From NCBI RefSeq assembly GCF_027594865.1, contig NZ_CP089391.1:5796501-5860500 (forward strand): a stretch of DNA of 64,000 nucleotides, in the 5' to 3' direction. This stretch comes from Bradyrhizobium xenonodulans (GTDB taxonomy: Bacteria > Pseudomonadota > Alphaproteobacteria > Rhizobiales > Xanthobacteraceae). The notes beneath the pieces are model-generated. The model worked only from the letters and a program-made list of their open reading frames with translations, made no database searches and was not told the DNA's origin. The position numbers and the translations under genes were made by a program. Positions within the stretch are counted from its first letter, which is position 1. Each line of letters begins with the position of its first letter. Of the stretch, positions 3,874 through 41,608 are shown piece after piece.

Positions 3874-4071
3874 TTGAAGCGCGTTCAAGACCAATTGCTC
3901 GATGCCGGCCCGTCAACGACTGTGACTGAGCTAGCCTTCGGGGCCGGATTCACTCATCTTGGCCGCTTCAGTGAGACCTACCGCAAGGCGTATGGAGAAA
4001 CGCCGAACGAGACACTCGCTCGTTCGAGGAAGTCATCCCGACGTGGGAAACCAAGAAAGGGGCCGCCTTGA
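3874..4071 (+). pseudogene. C-terminal fragment of an AraC-family regulator
   Basis: The 65-residue frame contains the second AraC helix-turn-helix: VTELAFGAGFTHLGRFS followed by YRKAYGETPNETL. This matches the usual WGF.H.GRFS..Y....G..PSE pattern. The first helix-turn-helix and the sensor domain are absent, and no ATG start fits. It reads towards the convergent asparaginase gene. Confidence 0.65.
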
Positions 4072-4198
4072 GGTGCCGTCGGGTACTTCCATAATCTACC
4101 CCCGTTCGCGCGGACATATTTTCGAAGCCGTCGAAATCCATCGGCCCCAAGTTGAGGCCCATCAAGGGCGCTTGCTACGTCGTACACCAGCGGAAGAG

Positions 4199-5116
4199 CT
4201 ACTCCGATAGTTCCAGCCAAAGACGCACGAGCGCAGCCTCCGGCGTCAACCTCCCGCCATTTTTAACACCGCTCTTCCAAAGCAAAGCACCTGCGGCATA
4301 CGCACCGGGCACAAGGCCTCCATTTTCGCAGCTGCTTACCGCGACAATACGACAGCCACGGCTCGTCGCGTCGGCGAACGTACGAAGCAATTCCGGGCTG
4401 TGCATCAGCGTCCCGGTACCAAAAACCCGGAGTACGGCACCTTCGAGCTGGCGGAGAGCCGCATCGATGGCCGCCACGCAAACGCCAGGCGAAAGGGTCA
4501 GAATGGCGAGCCGTCGTGGCAGGAAGCGACGCGGACGAAACTGCGCAAATTGTTGCTGACAGCTTTGATCGTCGGTTTCCCGGAAGGATGCCGGCCCGAT
4601 TGAATGATGCTTGACCAGCCTTCGAGCGCACAGCAGCCTGCCATCAAAGGCCAGCCAGACACCTGGAGGCCCCGAAGCAGCACTACGAAGAGCGAAACGC
4701 AGATTCTCTTCCGCATTCTGCCCTATTCCCAGAGGCTGCATTGAACCCGTGAAGACCACGGGAAGGTCAATGCCTTCGAGCGCGTACGATAAAGCGGCAC
4801 ACGTGTACGACATTGTGTCCGTCCCGTGCACAATGACGACGCCATCATATCGCCGCGACATGATCAACTCGATCAGTCGATTCCATTGCTCTGAACTGAA
4901 GTCAGCACTATCGACAAGCGGAGTAAACGAAACAACGTTTAGCCGCGCGGCTGCAGGAGCGAGTAGACTAAAAGCCGCTTCGACGAGCCCCGAAGCCGGC
5001 ACGAGGCCATTCGGCCCGTCCGCCATGCTGATTGTGCCGCCCGTATTGATCGCCAAAATGTCCCGCACGTCTGATCCTCGATCATCAGGCCGACGGGGCA
5101 CCCGTCCGCAAATCAC
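4199..5116 (-). CDS. L-asparaginase (type I/II bacterial fold)
   Basis: Hydrolyses asparagine to aspartate and ammonia. The 305 residues carry both catalytic threonine motifs: T25-G-G-T28-I-S near the N-terminus and H97-G-T-D-T-M102, with the GSMQP segment after them. No signal peptide is visible, so it should be cytoplasmic. The N-terminal 16 residues are polar and unusual; a GTG at codon 17 (VRDILAINTGG) is an equally good start. It is the last gene of the island operon, 42 bp after serine dehydratase. In this context it may free the amide nitrogen of asparagine or of an asparagine-derived product of the upstream flavoenzyme; that link is inference. Confidence 0.88.
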   Translation of the reverse strand: MICGRVPRRPDDRGSDVRDILAINTGGTISMADGPNGLVPASGLVEAAFSLLAPAAARLNVVSFTPLVDSADFSSEQWNRLIELIMSRRYDGVVIVHGTDTMSYTCAALSYALEGIDLPVVFTGSMQPLGIGQNAEENLRFALRSAASGPPGVWLAFDGRLLCARRLVKHHSIGPASFRETDDQSCQQQFAQFRPRRFLPRRLAILTLSPGVCVAAIDAALRQLEGAVLRVFGTGTLMHSPELLRTFADATSRGCRIVAVSSCENGGLVPGAYAAGALLWKSGVKNGGRLTPEAALVRLWLELSE

Positions 5117-34587: not shown

Positions 34588-35433
34588 TTACTGTTTGTGA
34601 AAGACCAGTGTGCGGACCTCGATGCTTTCGCGCGGCGCGGCATCGGCGGGCGTGGTCGGATCGACGAAGGCAGTATGCGGCCCGAAGCGGGTGCGGCCGT
34701 CGGTCGCCGAATCGTAGCATTTGAGCAGCAGCGCCTCGTCCGGCGTCATCTCCGGAAAATAGAACCAGCGATGGTTCGGATTGTACTTCACCGAATAGGT
34801 CTCACCGCGACGATTGGGATAGATCAGGTCGGAAGCGACGAGATCATCGGGCGCGACCGTGGTGCCATCCACCACCGCCAGCGGTGAATCCTGCAAGGGC
34901 CCGCGGATCGGCCGCCAGAGATTGATCACCTGCACACGGCCCTTCAGCAGCTCCTCGGCCTCGTCAGGCAGATGCTCGCGCACGCGGTTGGCGCCGGAGA
35001 TGTCGGTCTGATCGACATGAACACGCGTCGCAGGCTGGCGTGGGCCACCGTCGCGGATGTCAGGGGCGCCCTCGACGCGCTTGCGTACAGTGTGGTCGAA
35101 GATGACGACGCGGTCAGCCTTCAGCGTTGCGCGCAGGAACGCCTCGACCGCGGGATAGTAGACCGCCTTGATCTCCGCCTCGTTGTAAAAGTCCTTCACC
35201 TGGTTCGGATGGCGCACCAGCGCAAAGCCCTCGCGATCGAGCGAGAAATTGTTCGCGATCAGCCGCCCATCGAAGATCGGAACCTGGTGCGGCTCCGGCA
35301 GCGAGGTGCTCTTCGGCTCGCCCGGCGGCGGATCGAAAGCATAGGTGCGCGGCTTGCCCGAAACGGGCGCGAGATAGTTGAGTTCGGCAGTGACGAAGGG
35401 AAGCGACTCGATTTTTGTTACTTGCAGGCCCAT
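34588..35433 (-). CDS. CmcJ/NvfI-like oxygenase-family protein
   Basis: A 281-residue protein. Conserved features of the CmcJ/AsaB family are the FDHTVRKR segment, HVDQTD in the centre, INLWRPI, and the C-terminal CYDSATDGRTRFGPHTAF. Members are found in cephamycin and fungal metabolite pathways and may be non-haem iron enzymes; the activity of bacterial homologues like this one is mostly unknown. ATG 35433 is chosen from the conserved start (MGLQVTKIESLPFVTAELNYL). It stands alone. Confidence 0.75.
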   Translation of the reverse strand: MGLQVTKIESLPFVTAELNYLAPVSGKPRTYAFDPPPGEPKSTSLPEPHQVPIFDGRLIANNFSLDREGFALVRHPNQVKDFYNEAEIKAVYYPAVEAFLRATLKADRVVIFDHTVRKRVEGAPDIRDGGPRQPATRVHVDQTDISGANRVREHLPDEAEELLKGRVQVINLWRPIRGPLQDSPLAVVDGTTVAPDDLVASDLIYPNRRGETYSVKYNPNHRWFYFPEMTPDEALLLKCYDSATDGRTRFGPHTAFVDPTTPADAAPRESIEVRTLVFHKQ

Positions 35434-35821
35434 GGCCGGTCTCCCGATGTGGTCGTCTGGTTGATTTTTGCGAGGGCGGGGCGCGGTGCAAGGGAGGTGG
35501 CGCAAATAGCAATGTCGGTATTGTTGAGAGGCTGGAACGCAGAAGGAATGTTTCGAGGATGGCTGTCGGATTAGATGGCGCACCTGTGTCTCACGGATGC
35601 TTGAACAGCTTGTGAGATCTCGTGCCCCGGACGCAGCGCATCACCACAAGCGCGCTTACGCGCGTCTTCGACGCGCTATCGCACTGGTGGCGGGTTCGAT
35701 CGGCATCTCGCCACGATCGTGCTCGCGCATTTCACCTGCATGTGCCTGATCGTGTGGCTCTCCCTGTAGACGCAAGCAGAGTCGCCGCGTGCCGGCTCGG
35801 ACCGCAGCGTCGGAGCCGGCC
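35434..35821. other. Intergenic region without recognised gene
   Basis: About 390 bp. Short frames show no family features. A GCCGGCTC/GAGCCGGC hairpin near 35788-35818 could be a terminator or structural element. The promoter of the catalase-like gene begins right after it. Confidence 0.45.
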
Positions 35822-35887
35822 TTAAGGGAAAGATCAGGACAACATAAGGAGCCCATAAGGACTTGGGAGACACCGTTGGCCTAGCAT
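35822..35887 (+). promoter_or_regulatory. Phased 11-bp repeats and -10 of the catalase-like gene
   Basis: Four consecutive 11-mers: TTAAGGGAAAG, ATCAGGACAAC, ATAAGGAGCCC, ATAAGGACTTG (35822-35865). After 16 bp comes TAGCAT at 35882-35887, a -10-like element. No good -35 is present, as expected for an activator-dependent promoter. The same arrangement stands at 40257-40322. An 11-bp period is the spacing used by OmpR/PhoB-type winged helices. The predicted leader to the ATG is about 160 bases. Confidence 0.75.
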
Positions 35888-36055
35888 CGACCCTGTGATC
35901 TCGTCGGTAACGGGATGCCTCATTCCACGGCTCGTGCAGGCAACAGCAGCTCGTGCAGATTGCCGATTCGAACCGGGCGGGTTTACAGTGGGAACCGCCC
36001 TGCGGCCGTCGACGCTTGCAATGGGAAGGCGACGCGCGGGCTGGAGATCAGCGCC

Positions 36056-37150
36056 ATGTCAGCCGGTCAGTATCTTCGTTATGACCCGTCCGTCGAACAA
36101 GTCCGGCCGGAAGAAGCGGAGGCCGTCGAGGCGATCGTTGCCTCGATCTCGCGGACGAGTGCCCGCAGCTTCGCGAAGGACGGGCACGGCACCCGGCAGC
36201 AGCACGCCAAGGGCGCCGGTTATCTCCGCGGCGAGCTGATCGTTTACGACGACTTGCCGGATCATCTGCGTCAGGGCCTGTTCAAACAGGCCGGCCACTT
36301 CCCGATCATCGTACGGCTCTCGACCGCATTCAACAGGAGCGACCGCGTACGTTCGCCGCGCGGATTTGCCATCAAGATCCTGGGCGTGACCGGACCCAAG
36401 GCGCTCGGCGACGACGGCTCGACGAACCAGGATCTCCTGCTCGTCAATCATCCCAGCTATTTTGCGGACGCGATGAGCTATATGCACGCGCAGCACAAGG
36501 TCGAGAGCAGCCTGATCCTGCCGGATCTGGCGTACGGACCCATCGGCTTTGTCGCGCGCGTCCTGGTCGCCGCGTCGGACAGGACAGGCATTCCGATCCC
36601 GATCGTCTTGAAAGCGCTCGGTGATGCCGGCAGCAACATTCTCGGAGAAACCTTTCACACGGAGGGAGCGCTGCGGTTTGGCGATTATATTGCAAGGCTT
36701 CGCCTGGTGCCGATCTCGGCCTCGGTCCGCCGGCTGACCGGCCAGCCCTGCCACGACGCCGATCATGCCGTGCTGGACAACGTCGTTGCCTTCTTCAGGG
36801 ACAATGCGGCCGAGTACGAACTGTTCGCCCAGCTCTGCACCGACCTGGAGCGGACACCGATCGAAGACGCCTCGATCGATTGGCCCGAGGACGTCGCGCC
36901 GCCGCAAGCGCTCGGCAAGATCACGCTTCCGCGCCAGACCGCCGACAGTCCTGCGCGTCGCGTCTATTCCGACGAGGTGCTGTCGTTCGATCCATGGCGA
37001 TGCCTCGCCGCACATCAGCCGCTCGGCTCGATCATGCGGTTGCGCCGGGACGCTTACCGTGCCTCCCGCACGCTGCGGCAGCAGCAGAATCAATACATCA
37101 TCAAGCAGCAACCCGGAGAACCGCGACAGATCGCGGACCTGCCGGATTGA
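36056..37150 (+). CDS. Catalase-family haem protein (non-standard, short)
   Basis: A 364-residue member of the catalase superfamily. The distal histidine motif appears as RQQH50AKGAGYLRGEL, and the conserved asparagine region as STNQDLLLVNHPSYF. It is much shorter than true catalases (about 480-500) and lacks their standard C-terminal haem-tyrosine motif (R...YxDtH); RRVYSDEVLSF may take its place. It could be a catalase-related peroxidase or another haem enzyme. ATG 36056 follows GGAG. The phased-repeat promoter links it to the large regulator, whose gene converges on it six bases away. Confidence 0.78.
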   Translation: MSAGQYLRYDPSVEQVRPEEAEAVEAIVASISRTSARSFAKDGHGTRQQHAKGAGYLRGELIVYDDLPDHLRQGLFKQAGHFPIIVRLSTAFNRSDRVRSPRGFAIKILGVTGPKALGDDGSTNQDLLLVNHPSYFADAMSYMHAQHKVESSLILPDLAYGPIGFVARVLVAASDRTGIPIPIVLKALGDAGSNILGETFHTEGALRFGDYIARLRLVPISASVRRLTGQPCHDADHAVLDNVVAFFRDNAAEYELFAQLCTDLERTPIEDASIDWPEDVAPPQALGKITLPRQTADSPARRVYSDEVLSFDPWRCLAAHQPLGSIMRLRRDAYRASRTLRQQQNQYIIKQQPGEPRQIADLPD

Positions 37151-37156
37151 GACCGA

Positions 37157-40100
37157 TCATGGTCCCGCAATATCGGGGCCGGCGTCCCGGCCGGCGTCGA
37201 AAAAGGATGCCGACCGCAGCGGATCGCCGGGATCGAGCGTCTCGGCCAGCGACGCAATCACCTGGCGGGAGCGGTCCCGCCACTTCGCGGCCCTTTGCGC
37301 ATGTCCGAGGCTCCCATAGAGCACCGCGACCGTGCGATAGACCTGCCAGGCGGCATGCGGCAGCCTGGCGCGGCGGACGATCGAAATTGCCGTCGCCAAA
37401 TGTTCGCCGGCGAGTTGCGCATCCTGCTTCAGGATCGCCATTCTTGCCATGACCTCGTGGCACAGCGCGAGAAACGGGCGGTCGGGTGCCGCGCTCGTCA
37501 CCTCGTGAAACTGGCCGGCCGAACTGCGGGCGCGATCCAGATCGCCGGTCGCGATCCAATAGTCGCAGCAAGTCAGCAGATAGTGGGGAATGACCAGCGA
37601 CTCCATCGGCACGCGGTCGATCTCCATTCGCCGCTCCATCGCATCGAGATGCTGCCGTGCCCGCGCCAGGTCGCCCATCCTGACATAAGCTCGCGCCAGC
37701 AAATTCCTGCCAACGAAGAAGGTGAACGGATTGGCCTCGATCATCCCACCGAGCGCATCCTCCGCACGCCGCGCCGCGCTCCCGTATTCCCCGGCCTCGG
37801 AGTACAGCCATCCGATGGTGAGGTGACACAGCGCGATGGCCTGCGGATTTGCATTCCGCTCCGAGATGGCCAACGCGGAGGCGACGTTTCTCTGCGCCCG
37901 CCCCCATTCGCCGAGATAGATCTGCGCAAAGGCCTCGACGGCTTCATAGAGCACGAACAGATAGACGTCACCGACCACGCGGGCGAGCTCCTTGCCCCTG
38001 GTCGTCGCGTCGCAGCAGGCCGGATAATTCGCGCGCAGGAACTCCAGCACCATCTCCATCGAGCAGCGTCGCAGCCGCATGCTCAGGTCCTGCTCTCCCG
38101 TGATCAGTGCCGAGGCCTGCTCGGCAAGGGAGGCGTTCTCGCGGTCCCAGCCGCAGAGCATCAGCTTCAAATTGGCAACGTTCCCCTGGACCAGCGCGCT
38201 GAACGCGGCGTCATCGATCGCACGGCTCTTCACGAGGGCCTGTTCGGCGACGGGCAGGCTCTGGCGCCGGTCGACGTAAAGACAAAACCGGCTGAGGTCG
38301 ACCAGTGCGTTCACCTCTTCGCGCACGTGCCCATTCTCCGCCGCATGCGCGACGACTGCGCTGAGATCCTGCAGGGAATTCAGGAAATCTCCGCTGGCCC
38401 GCCAGGCCCAGGCGCGCTGAAGCAGCAACTTCAGACGTGTTGCCACCCGAAACTCCGGCGGCAAATGCGGCACCAGATCCAAGGCCCGGGAGAGATAGCT
38501 CGCCGCCTCGCGCGTGCTGAATCGCCGCGCCGAGCCCTCGGCGGCAGCGCCCAGATAGTGCATCGCCTTCAGAAAATCGCGGCCCAGTTCGAAATGGCGG
38601 GCGAGCACGGCGGCGATCTCCGGAGCCTGCAGCCCATATCCCTGCTCGAGCCCCGCCCCGAGCAGTGCATGGGTTTTCGCACGGCGCGCGGGCGCGAGCC
38701 GCTGGTACAGGATCTCCTGGTAGAGCGCGTGCTGGAACGCGTAACGCCCGGAGACGTCTCCGCTCGGCCACTCCGTCATGCCGTCGACGAGGAGGATGCG
38801 ATCGGTCCGCGCCAGGTCCTCGCACATCTGCTCGACGTCCAGCACGGAACGGTCGAGGGCGCCTGCGATATGGAGCGCGGAAAACTCCGCACCCGCCGCA
38901 CTTCCGACTTCGAGCAGGCAGCGCTCGTCCGCAGTGAGATGATCGATCTGCTGCTTGATCATTCCTTCCAGATCGCGCGGCATGCTGTCCTGCGAGGCTG
39001 CGTCTTCGCGGACCAGCCGCCAGCCTGCGTCGCTCTCGACGAGCGCGCCCTGCGCCACGAGATGATCGATGAGTGAGGTCACGAACAACGGCTGCCCGCC
39101 GGTTCGCGCGAAGATGCGCTGGACCAGCTCCTTGGCGAAATCGGCGGAGTTGAAGCGCAGGGAAAGATAGCGTTCGACGTCGATGTCGGTCAGTCGGTCG
39201 AGCGCGAGCTCGGTGGCGTATCCGTGAATCCGCAGGTCCTGGTGAACCGCGCGGACGGGATGTCCGCCCACGGCGACTTCCATCGGCCGATAGGTGGCCA
39301 ACACGAGGATGGCCGCCTTCCCATCCCGGCGCGCAAGGCGCGAGAGCACATCCACGGTGGCAAAGTCGCTCCAATGCAGGTCTTCCAGCACGATCACCCA
39401 TGGTCGCCGGGCGGCGAGATGTTCCATGAGATCGGCAAATTCACGCAGCATGCGCTCGCGGGTTGCGCCAAAGACCTCGTGCTGGAATGCGGCCCGGTCT
39501 GCTTCGCCGAGGAAGCCGGGCATTTGCGCGAGCCAGGTCGGCGCGTGCTCGCGTATGGAAGCCAGCAGCGATGCTCCATCGGTTCGACGGCAACACTCGT
39601 TCAGCGCTCCGATCAGTGGAAGAAAGGCCTCATGGGTGCCGAACAATTCGTTGCAGCCACAGTGCAGCACGCCCAGTCCCTGCCGGTTCATCCTGTCGAG
39701 CGTCATTTGCAAGAGGGTGGTCTTGCCGATCCCCGCCTCGCCGGTGATGAAGACGATCTGGCGCTGTCCGGTACGCGCGAGTTGCAGCGCCTTGTCCAGC
39801 ATCTCGAGGGCCCCGGAGCGCCCGACCCGCCATTGCCGGCGTCGATCGATCGCCTGCTCCGCGGCGGAAGCCCCCTCCACGTCAGCCGCCCGCTCGATCG
39901 CACGCAATTCGGCGGTCGCGACCGCCGCAATGAAGCGATAGCCGCGCCGCGGGACCGTCTCGATATAGTTGGGGGACTGCCTGTCGTCGCCGAGTGCCGC
40001 GCGGAGCGCGTTGACGGCGACGGCAAGGCTGGACTCGCTGACGTGGAGATCGGACCAGACCGCGTCGAGCAACTCTTCCTTGGTGACGAGCTCACCGGGA

Positions 40101-40228
40101 CGATCGGCCAGACAGCACAGGACCTCGAACGGCTTCGGCGGCAGCGCGACCCGCTCCGCTCCTCGCCACAATAGCGCGTTGGCCCGATCGAGCCGGAATT
40201 CACCAAAGGTAAGCGCGTCTCTACGCAC
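37157..40228 (-). CDS. Winged-helix, AAA ATPase and TPR transcriptional regulator
   Basis: A 1023-residue regulator. Residues 8-100 form an OmpR/CadC-type winged helix (LTFGEFRLDRANALLWRG, then ESSLAVAVNALRAALGD and VPRRGYRF). An AAA_16 ATPase follows with P-loop GEAGIGKTTLL at about 163 and a Walker B-like VIVLEDLHW. The C-terminal half is helical and TPR-like (repeated A-rich helices such as AEDALGGMIEANP and ARQHLDAMERR). This is a signal-integrating activator of the STAND/LAL type, in which nucleotide and ligand binding should switch oligomerisation. GTG 40228 is preferred, with GGAGG eight bases upstream; the longer frame starts at a TTG inside the operator. Phased repeats in front of both neighbouring units, and of its own gene, are its likely sites. 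Confidence 0.85.
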   Translation of the reverse strand: MRRDALTFGEFRLDRANALLWRGAERVALPPKPFEVLCCLADRPGELVTKEELLDAVWSDLHVSESSLAVAVNALRAALGDDRQSPNYIETVPRRGYRFIAAVATAELRAIERAADVEGASAAEQAIDRRRQWRVGRSGALEMLDKALQLARTGQRQIVFITGEAGIGKTTLLQMTLDRMNRQGLGVLHCGCNELFGTHEAFLPLIGALNECCRRTDGASLLASIREHAPTWLAQMPGFLGEADRAAFQHEVFGATRERMLREFADLMEHLAARRPWVIVLEDLHWSDFATVDVLSRLARRDGKAAILVLATYRPMEVAVGGHPVRAVHQDLRIHGYATELALDRLTDIDVERYLSLRFNSADFAKELVQRIFARTGGQPLFVTSLIDHLVAQGALVESDAGWRLVREDAASQDSMPRDLEGMIKQQIDHLTADERCLLEVGSAAGAEFSALHIAGALDRSVLDVEQMCEDLARTDRILLVDGMTEWPSGDVSGRYAFQHALYQEILYQRLAPARRAKTHALLGAGLEQGYGLQAPEIAAVLARHFELGRDFLKAMHYLGAAAEGSARRFSTREAASYLSRALDLVPHLPPEFRVATRLKLLLQRAWAWRASGDFLNSLQDLSAVVAHAAENGHVREEVNALVDLSRFCLYVDRRQSLPVAEQALVKSRAIDDAAFSALVQGNVANLKLMLCGWDRENASLAEQASALITGEQDLSMRLRRCSMEMVLEFLRANYPACCDATTRGKELARVVGDVYLFVLYEAVEAFAQIYLGEWGRAQRNVASALAISERNANPQAIALCHLTIGWLYSEAGEYGSAARRAEDALGGMIEANPFTFFVGRNLLARAYVRMGDLARARQHLDAMERRMEIDRVPMESLVIPHYLLTCCDYWIATGDLDRARSSAGQFHEVTSAAPDRPFLALCHEVMARMAILKQDAQLAGEHLATAISIVRRARLPHAAWQVYRTVAVLYGSLGHAQRAAKWRDRSRQVIASLAETLDPGDPLRSASFFDAGRDAGPDIAGP

Positions 40229-40256
40229 GGCTTCCACCTCCGGATATTCCCCGATC

Positions 40257-40322
40257 TTAAGCGAAAGCTCAGCCAAATGTAAGGACGCGCTAAAGACCTG
40301 CGCCTTGCGCCGGCACTAGCAT
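40257..40322 (+). promoter_or_regulatory. Phased 11-bp repeats and -10 of the micro-membrane-protein operon
   Basis: TTAAGCGAAAG, CTCAGCCAAAT, GTAAGGACGCG, CTAAAGACCTG (40257-40300), a gap of 16 bp, then TAGCAT (40317-40322). Each unit aligns with the corresponding unit at 35822-35865, and the gap is identical. The repeats also lie 29 bp upstream of the regulator's GTG on the other strand, so they could serve autoregulation. Confidence 0.75.
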
Positions 40323-40430: not shown

Positions 40431-40610
40431 ATGAGCATTTTGAACCCCCAGGCAATCCCGCATCTCCCAATTGCCATACGCGGTTACGACCTCAGGGTCA
40501 TCTTGAGCGTCACCGTCCTCAGCCGCCTCTTCCTCGCTGCCATCTATTTTGCGTACGCCGGCCCGAGCCTGTCCGGGACCGACCTCATCAACGCCATCGC
40601 GCTGCCATGA
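40431..40610 (+). CDS. 59-residue single-span membrane protein
   Basis: No family recognised. ATG follows AAGGAG at six bases, a strong site. The sequence has a polar start, one hydrophobic helix at about 22-44 (LRVILSVTVLSRLFLAAIYFAYA), and a short tail. Its stop overlaps the next start as ATGA. It is the first gene under the phased-repeat promoter. The good ribosome site, overlap and promoter support a real gene despite the small size. Confidence 0.65.
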   Translation: MSILNPQAIPHLPIAIRGYDLRVILSVTVLSRLFLAAIYFAYAGPSLSGTDLINAIALP

Positions 40611-40810
40611 GCTCGGGACCGCTTGAATGGTGCATCGGGATCGCGATCATCGCCGCGATCTGCATCGGGATTTTCGCAGCCGCGCATGTCCACATCAGCG
40701 TGCCGGATCGGGACTCTCGCCGCGCGCCGCGCGACCGGGCCGCCTGCTTTCAGCGTTCCGCGAGCGGCGCAAACACCGGAGCGCTCTCGCACAGCCGGCA
40801 CCCCGCTTGA
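40607..40810 (+). CDS. 67-residue single-span membrane protein
   Basis: No family recognised. It begins MSSGPLEWCIGIAIIAAICIGIFAAAHVHIS, an N-terminal hydrophobic helix, followed by a basic, Ser/Arg-rich tail. It starts within the stop of the preceding gene (ATGA), so translation is coupled. Its TGA lies in the loop of the terminator hairpin that closes the operon. Function unknown; it could act on the envelope or on partner membrane proteins. Confidence 0.55.
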   Translation: MSSGPLEWCIGIAIIAAICIGIFAAAHVHISVPDRDSRRAPRDRAACFQRSASGANTGALSHSRHPA

Positions 40811-40836: not shown

Positions 40837-41268
40837 TCACCAATATCCGCGATGATAGGCTCGATATGGCCGATAGTAGCCGTAGCGGGGGCCATAGTAC
40901 GGGCGGTAGGCCCTGTAGCCGTAATACCGAGGACGCGCGTAATACGGCCCGCCATATCCATAATAGGCCGGCGCGTAGCCGTAGCCGTAGCCCGGATAGC
41001 CATAGCCACCGTAGTATGGGCCGCCGCCATAATAGCCATAAGGTCCGCCGCTGGCGATGGCGCCGCCGATGATCGCGCCGGCCGCGAGGCCGCCGAGACC
41101 CCATCCCCAACCACCGCCGCGCCAATGCACCTGCGTCACATCATCGCCGGCCGCGGCTTTCATGGTCGCGACGTTCGTGGGCAGCGGGGCGGCCGCCGCC
41201 TGCTGAATTTCGCCGGCCGTGACCACGCCGGCCAGCGAACAGGCAATTGCTGTTTTCCAGATCCTCAT
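40837..41268 (-). CDS. Secreted Gly/Tyr-rich low-complexity protein
   Basis: A 143-residue protein. After a signal peptide (first about 27 residues) and a short spacer, it has a glycine-zipper-like hydrophobic stretch (GLGGLAAGAIIGGAIASGG). A long tail is then composed almost only of Gly, Tyr, Pro and Arg (repeated YGYYGG, GYGY, RPYYGP). Such proteins are common in rhizobia and presumed to sit at the cell envelope. ATG 41268 follows GGGAG. Function unknown. Confidence 0.75.
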   Translation of the reverse strand: MRIWKTAIACSLAGVVTAGEIQQAAAAPLPTNVATMKAAAGDDVTQVHWRGGGWGWGLGGLAAGAIIGGAIASGGPYGYYGGGPYYGGYGYPGYGYGYAPAYYGYGGPYYARPRYYGYRAYRPYYGPRYGYYRPYRAYHRGYW

Positions 41269-41608
41269 CGTCTTACTCCCTGTCTGACGTTTCGCTTGGA
41301 CATGGATCGCATCGCCATGATCGGGCATTATTGCGCGAAGTCAAAGCTTCGAATCCGGCCTCGAATTTGCGTGCACCGCACAAGACGCATGCCTCCGTTT
41401 TGTCCAACCGGTGCAGGACGGACGCTGCTGCGCCTTGTGACACCGGCACGACGGCGCCTGTGGCCCGATCACCCGGCAAAGCATTAAGCTTCCCGTGCAT
41501 TCGCAACCAACAACCACCTTCACGATTTACTATTCGTGCCATTACTATCGGTTCCAATGTGCGCGGCCGGGAGGCTTCTCGCGAGCGCCAGAGTTGTGGG
41601 AGGATGAC
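41269..41608. other. Divergent promoter region, no gene recognised
   Basis: 340 bp between the Gly/Tyr-rich gene and glgC. A minus-strand frame (41273-41557) has two CxxC pairs (CVLCG, CDPC) but no recognisable family and no good start, and is not called. The region must hold both divergent promoters; no operator was identified. Confidence 0.45.

Follow-up and report, generated by a model that had tools for sequence, protein, structure and literature searches.

The locus described here lies in a window of 64 kb from the genome of Bradyrhizobium xenonodulans, i.e., the whole stretch of DNA that was analysed, to which all coordinates refer. Its centre is a long regulator gene on the minus strand, and a catalase-like gene on the plus strand is arranged tail to tail with it, the two stop codons being only 6 bp apart. 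On the other side of the regulator, one and possibly two microprotein genes are read divergently from it. Both promoter regions, the one ahead of the catalase-like gene and the one separating the regulator from the microprotein genes, contain a fourfold phased repeat, which we interpret below as an operator. A CmcJ/NvfI family oxidoreductase gene is located upstream of operator 1 on the opposite strand (34588-35583).

Operator 1 (35822..35862, plus strand), upstream of the catalase-like gene, was delimited by the genome scan, conservation, information content and its spacing to the -10 element; operator 2 (40257..40297, plus strand), between the regulator and microprotein genes, by the scan, the phased-unit score, conservation and spacing. 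Each is composed of four units in 11-bp phase with a TMAG core in every unit. In operator 1 the first three units begin with TTAAG, ATCAG and ATAAG and the fourth is ATAAGGAC, in operator 2 they begin with TTAAG, CTCAG and GTAAG and the fourth is CTAAAGAC. A presumed -10 element, TAGCAT, is found at 35882..35887 and 40317..40322 (both plus strand), 19 bp past TAAGGAC and TAAAGAC, respectively. The distance from the conserved TAANGAC is therefore the same in both promoters and equals 16 bp when counted from the end of the 44-bp block. A -35 element is not evident in either promoter, the canonical position being occupied by GGACTT (operator 1) and AGACCT (operator 2). These observations bear out the preliminary description of this DNA, which had reported four 11-mers matching unit by unit at both promoters, a TAGCAT exactly 16 bp after the block and no evident -35. 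The arrangement TTG-N(16-18)-TATA, given for RpoD promoters of B. japonicum in the available part of PMC4842269, is not present in the window promoters.

The two operators are identical at 29 of 41 positions. Chance alone would yield about five equally similar pairs in 64 kb, so that their likeness in the window is not decisive and independent support is needed. A full-genome scan with the four-unit motif, proposed in the preliminary description, recovered operators 1 and 2 as the sole matches: the joint two-site pattern, with up to 3 mismatches, matched twice in the 8.28-Mb genome (reversed control: 0), and a looser pattern of TMAG units plus TAGCAT found the same two places and no more.

The proposal of a regulon hinged on conservation of the repeats beside regulator orthologues, and such conservation is what the comparison of 265 Bradyrhizobium genomes revealed. 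The TPR tail of the regulator matched in 51 of the genomes at E 1e-15, of which 22 have a close orthologue (51-100% identity over the TPR tail); over the regulator, identity was 84-90% in five of six loci compared. Of these 22 genomes, 21 carry the strict operator pattern, as against none of the 243 others (reversed-pattern control: 0). The pattern is present at 38 places in total, two per genome in 17 genomes and one in four. The 22nd orthologue genome, G127, has the same element past the mismatch limit of the strict pattern. Fisher's test gives 3e-30 for this co-occurrence, a value that does not stem from independent trials as the genomes are related; moreover, block inheritance of the locus would bring along any element inside it. 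The 11-bp phasing and the gap to the -10 likewise persist next to the orthologues. In the phased-unit scan all 22 close-orthologue loci score at least 14 of 16, which none of 60 shuffles reached, and the spacer to TAGC(A/G)T measures 18-20 bp in 21 of the 22 operators on the divergent side and in 15 of the 19 on the catalase side. The catalase-side operator was found in 19 of the 22 loci, with a weak copy in G127, and not in G074, G113 and G125. In G017 a small ORF (L033, ~3978-4652) separates it from the catalase-like gene, which follows only after ~0.65 kb, and the distance is similar in G086 and G135.

Conservation is concentrated in the operators. In ungapped stacks of representatives anchored at the operator (11 of 22 rows on the divergent side, 8 of 18 on the catalase side), mean information amounts to 1.64 bits per base in the divergent-side and 1.62 in the catalase-side operator, 0.46-0.75 and 0.49-1.10 in the respective flanks, 0.91 and 1.16 in the spacers between operator and -10, and 1.39 and 1.82 at the -10 positions. 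Two promoters of one genome are alike in the operator (24-30 of 41 positions), not upstream of it (12-23 of 60). Compared to the window copy, the catalase-side operator retains 76-98% identity in 17 genomes and 61% in G127; over the 60 bp that precede it, identity falls to 18-55%. The separate conservation of both operators in other species, with diverging flanks, refutes in our view a mere chance resemblance of the two sequences; in spite of the similar pairs expected in a window of this size, we regard its probability as negligible.

The regulator gene (37157..40228, minus strand) encodes 1023 aa with a ToxR-like winged helix, an AAA_16/STAND ATPase and a TPR superhelix. Its start is most likely the GTG at 40228 and not a TTG inside the repeats, because G055 (L104) has a stop between this upstream TTG and the likely start, and G233 and G237 have Met at the GTG position. 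In G152 (L105) a TGA occurs within the regulator frame, in the TPR-tail match. The winged-helix DNA-binding domain (39911..40219, minus strand) covers about residues 4-106; Pfam PF00486 matches residues 41-115 of the longer, 1039-aa ORF. ToxR is the best PDB sequence match of this domain (E 1.3e-13), and the regulator model superposes on DNA-bound ToxR with an rmsd of 1.1 Å over 103 residues. The PF00486 match bears out the OmpR-like winged helix that had been read between the two promoters. Models of HilA/EilA and CadC match the winged helix as well, below their cut-offs. A linker of low model confidence (residues 107-131) leads to the AAA_16 ATPase domain (39311..39826, minus strand, ~residues 135-306; Pfam E 9e-24), in which the invariant GEAGIGKT (residues 163-170) and an EDLHWSD-type segment are shared by most of the 22 regulator sequences. 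The TPR-like helical repeat sensor region extends over 37184..38674 on the minus strand (~residues 519-1015). With a predicted P-loop NOD ATPase and a modelled superhelical sensor in one chain, the protein has the domain features of the STAND class.

This architecture resembles several known regulators in part. The winged helix is ToxR-like, as in ToxR, CadC and HilA; in contrast to ToxR and CadC, the regulator has no membrane-span-like stretch (top 19-residue hydropathy 1.3) and no periplasmic sensor by hydropathy, and carries a C-terminal STAND/TPR part instead. MalT is likewise a STAND transcription activator with a TPR-type sensor, and the sensor of the window regulator is MalT-like. MalT has a C-terminal LuxR-type HTH, whereas the window regulator has an N-terminal winged helix. 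TPR proteins fill the best 50 structural matches listed, and AfsR is absent among these, which given their composition does not speak against a relationship.

The catalase-like gene (36056..37150, plus strand, 364 aa) most likely begins at 36056, where the start is conserved; its Pfam match, PF00199, was obtained on a longer ORF from 35915. Catalases were retrieved both in the PDB sequence search, in which the distal residues H50 and N131 align with those of catalase, and by Foldseek. H50, N131, R330, Y334, S337 and R341 are invariant in 20 catalase-like sequences, the last four constituting what we take to be the proximal-Tyr motif of catalases, R-x3-Y-x2-S/T-x3-R. The top Foldseek match is the 33-kDa catalase-related protein of Mycobacterium avium (3e4y/3e4w), which is alike in its small catalase fold at only 16-19% identity. 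The model is weak (mean pLDDT 60), and conclusions on residues therefore rest on sequence. The 364-aa protein accordingly classifies as a small catalase-fold protein with predicted haem binding. Its gene adjoins the regulator in all 22 close-orthologue loci. Orthologues of at least 61% identity are found in exactly the same 22 genomes, and five others have homologues of 37-43%. Relatives were recognised in 640 of 7,996 scored candidates, and the family thus extends well beyond the regulon.

Microprotein 1 (40431..40610, plus strand) has 59 aa with one membrane span predicted by hydropathy, and an open counterpart of 53-64 aa in 20 of 22 loci. Its coding signal is weak. Differences at the three codon positions are 51/29/60 in six separate pairs and almost flat, 181/143/184, when 13 genomes are compared with the window copy; the winged helix used as control gave 22/15/77, excluding a misaligned G237/G057 row (79/90/64). 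A tentative microprotein 2 (40607..40810, plus strand, 67 aa) has a hydrophobic N-terminus and overlaps microprotein 1 by ATGA. A related overlapping ORF (ATGA or TTGA) was recognised in 17 of the 20 loci having microprotein 1 and is absent or unrecognisable in the other three. A coding pattern was not found in its codon-position differences (22/57/56). The neighbouring ORF on the minus strand (40837-41328) has many Tyr/Gly-rich repeats and could not be assigned to a family in Pfam or NCBIfam.

The regulator encoded between the two four-unit repeats probably uses them as its operators, through which it would activate the catalase-like and microprotein genes. The sites, their phasing, the fixed distance to the -10, their conservation and the co-occurrence with the regulator are directly observed. 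Binding by the regulator, activation versus repression, the size of the oligomer and the inducer we infer. In the mechanism that we favour, each protomer would contact one 11-bp unit, its ToxR-type winged helix recognising the TMAG core. An inducer on the TPR sensor and ATP on the STAND ATPase would cause the regulator to oligomerise, and the protomers would line up head to tail along a single face of the double helix, the last unit covering the poor -35 region. This array could then recruit RNA polymerase to the weak CTAGCAT promoter, by which the haem protein of the catalase type and one or both of the membrane microproteins would be switched on. The regulator may in addition act on its own gene, the start of which lies 29 bp from operator 2. 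A compact regulon of a sensor-activator, a haem enzyme and small membrane proteins, as had been suggested from the window sequence, is supported by the orthologue co-occurrence and by the conservation of the sites.

The best parallel is found in AfsR/SARP of Streptomyces. According to the available part of PMC10936776, these combine an N-terminal OmpR-type winged helix, a NOD (STAND) ATPase and TPR in one protein, and their operators are 11-bp direct repeats over a poor -35, with a suboptimal -10 and a 3' repeat, in arrays of two or three units, located 8 bp from it. The binding of OmpR-type winged helices to ~11-bp direct repeats is consistent with this literature as far as that part covers it. 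The window locus shares the domain combination, the 11-bp repeats over a poor -35 and the weak -10. It differs from the AfsR/SARP systems described there in that its last unit is 19 bp from the -10. As 19 equals 8 + 11 bp, this unit lies one turn further and on the same face of the helix as the SARP 3' repeat. Further differences from that description are the four units, the TMAG core, the absence of a Pfam match to the BTA domain in the regulator ORF at E 0.001, the alphaproteobacterial host and targets other than antibiotic genes. A second parallel is PhoB, whose pho boxes are tandem 11-bp units replacing the -35. The window operators likewise have 11-bp units in place of the -35, but their core sequence differs and no receiver domain was found in the regulator by Pfam.

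The same regulator and operators might alternatively serve mainly in repression, with the promoters of the microprotein, catalase-like and regulator genes kept blocked until the array is released by an inducer. Operator 2, so close to the regulator start, could well block it, yet the units end 19 bp before a conserved weak -10 and replace the -35, an arrangement known from promoters activated by AfsR-type proteins. Repression is also at odds with G127, whose divergent side has two operators (L115, 7107-7440): the copy next to the regulator has decayed, the copy next to the microprotein gene is intact. As the copy adjoining the microprotein gene is the one kept, this suggests that the operator serves the outward, microprotein promoter, and we consider predominant repression unlikely. 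An alternative sigma factor promoter, with TAAGGAC as -35, CTAGCAT as -10 and unrelated units upstream, would explain why TAANGAC and CTAGCAT, nearest to the start, are highly conserved. We regard it as very improbable, because all four units are conserved, to an equal degree in units 1, 2 and 4, and just two such promoters exist in the genome.

A comparison with 33 further homologue loci, 19 of a second clade, which speak for the activator reading, and 14 others, which count against it, gave a divided picture. Second-clade regulators are ~42-43% identical to the window regulator, and 18 of the 19 loci have four phased units at the divergent promoter, with scores of at least 13 of 16 that 0-3 of 60 shuffles reach; in the 19th (G046) the N-terminus of the regulator is damaged. 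The second-clade pattern matches in 18 of the 22 genomes given, once each. The gene set downstream of the operator is a different one: in most of ten second-clade loci examined (among L130-L146, L035, L036) it comprises a ~110-codon ORF and genes for a membrane-type protein of 62 aa and a permease-like protein of 242 aa. The 14 other loci have no four-unit repeats in the phased-unit scan (best score 12), and no other phased repeats were obvious when these clades were aligned by eye. Their regulators, mostly 44-48% identical to that of the window, are at least as close to it as those of the second clade, although two of the 14 have a cyclase domain (see below). The recognition helix, assigned following the predicted structure model, reads SES in both repeat-bearing clades and EESN or EDSN in the repeat-less homologues. 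This correlation of helix and repeat across few clades fits recognition of the operator by the regulator itself. Period-11 scores upstream of other winged-helix paralogues (seven regions, four genomes) revealed nothing clear, in a test that carries little weight as 7 of 200 shuffles reached the positive control itself.

The second clade also bears on whether the repeats belong to another factor of the OmpR family, for example CtrA. The CtrA site is TTAA-N7-TTAA, with an 11-bp period, and units 3 and 4 of the second clade read exactly so. In the window clade, on the other hand, the core is TAAG/TCAG and the preceding base varies, so that it is not TTAA; units 3-4 of the two window operators are ATAA-N7-ATAA and GTAA-N7-CTAA and do not fit. 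A global factor should, furthermore, have more than two sites per genome, and the pattern tracks the regulator orthologue instead. Such a factor appears quite improbable to us.

In two of the 14 repeat-less loci, L125 (G082) and L127 (G181), the STAND/TPR module bears an adenylate/guanylate cyclase domain where the other homologues have the winged helix. Judged by their sequences, these homologues represent the same sensor module shuffled between two outputs.

In a search of the open-access literature, no study of this regulator or its operator was found, nor of an operator that serves a comparable regulator of rhizobia. The locus combines known principles in a form of which we found no characterised example in that literature. 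Conservation pins down its operator, its promoter and its likely targets to the single base. Three questions thereby become accessible to experiment: in what way transcription would be activated by a soluble ToxR-type domain attached to a STAND sensor, whether there are as many DNA units as subunits in the oligomer, and which signals the microproteins and the catalase-like protein respond to. More speculatively, and with considerable doubt on our side, the regulator could form a DNA-templated STAND complex, in which inducer-driven oligomers assemble on the four-unit operator, promoter output counts protomers, and the microproteins made from the operator feed back on the sensor. Interest in the regulator is set in context by the richness of the window genome in winged-helix and STAND ATPase paralogues, with 18 matches to the regulator sequence.
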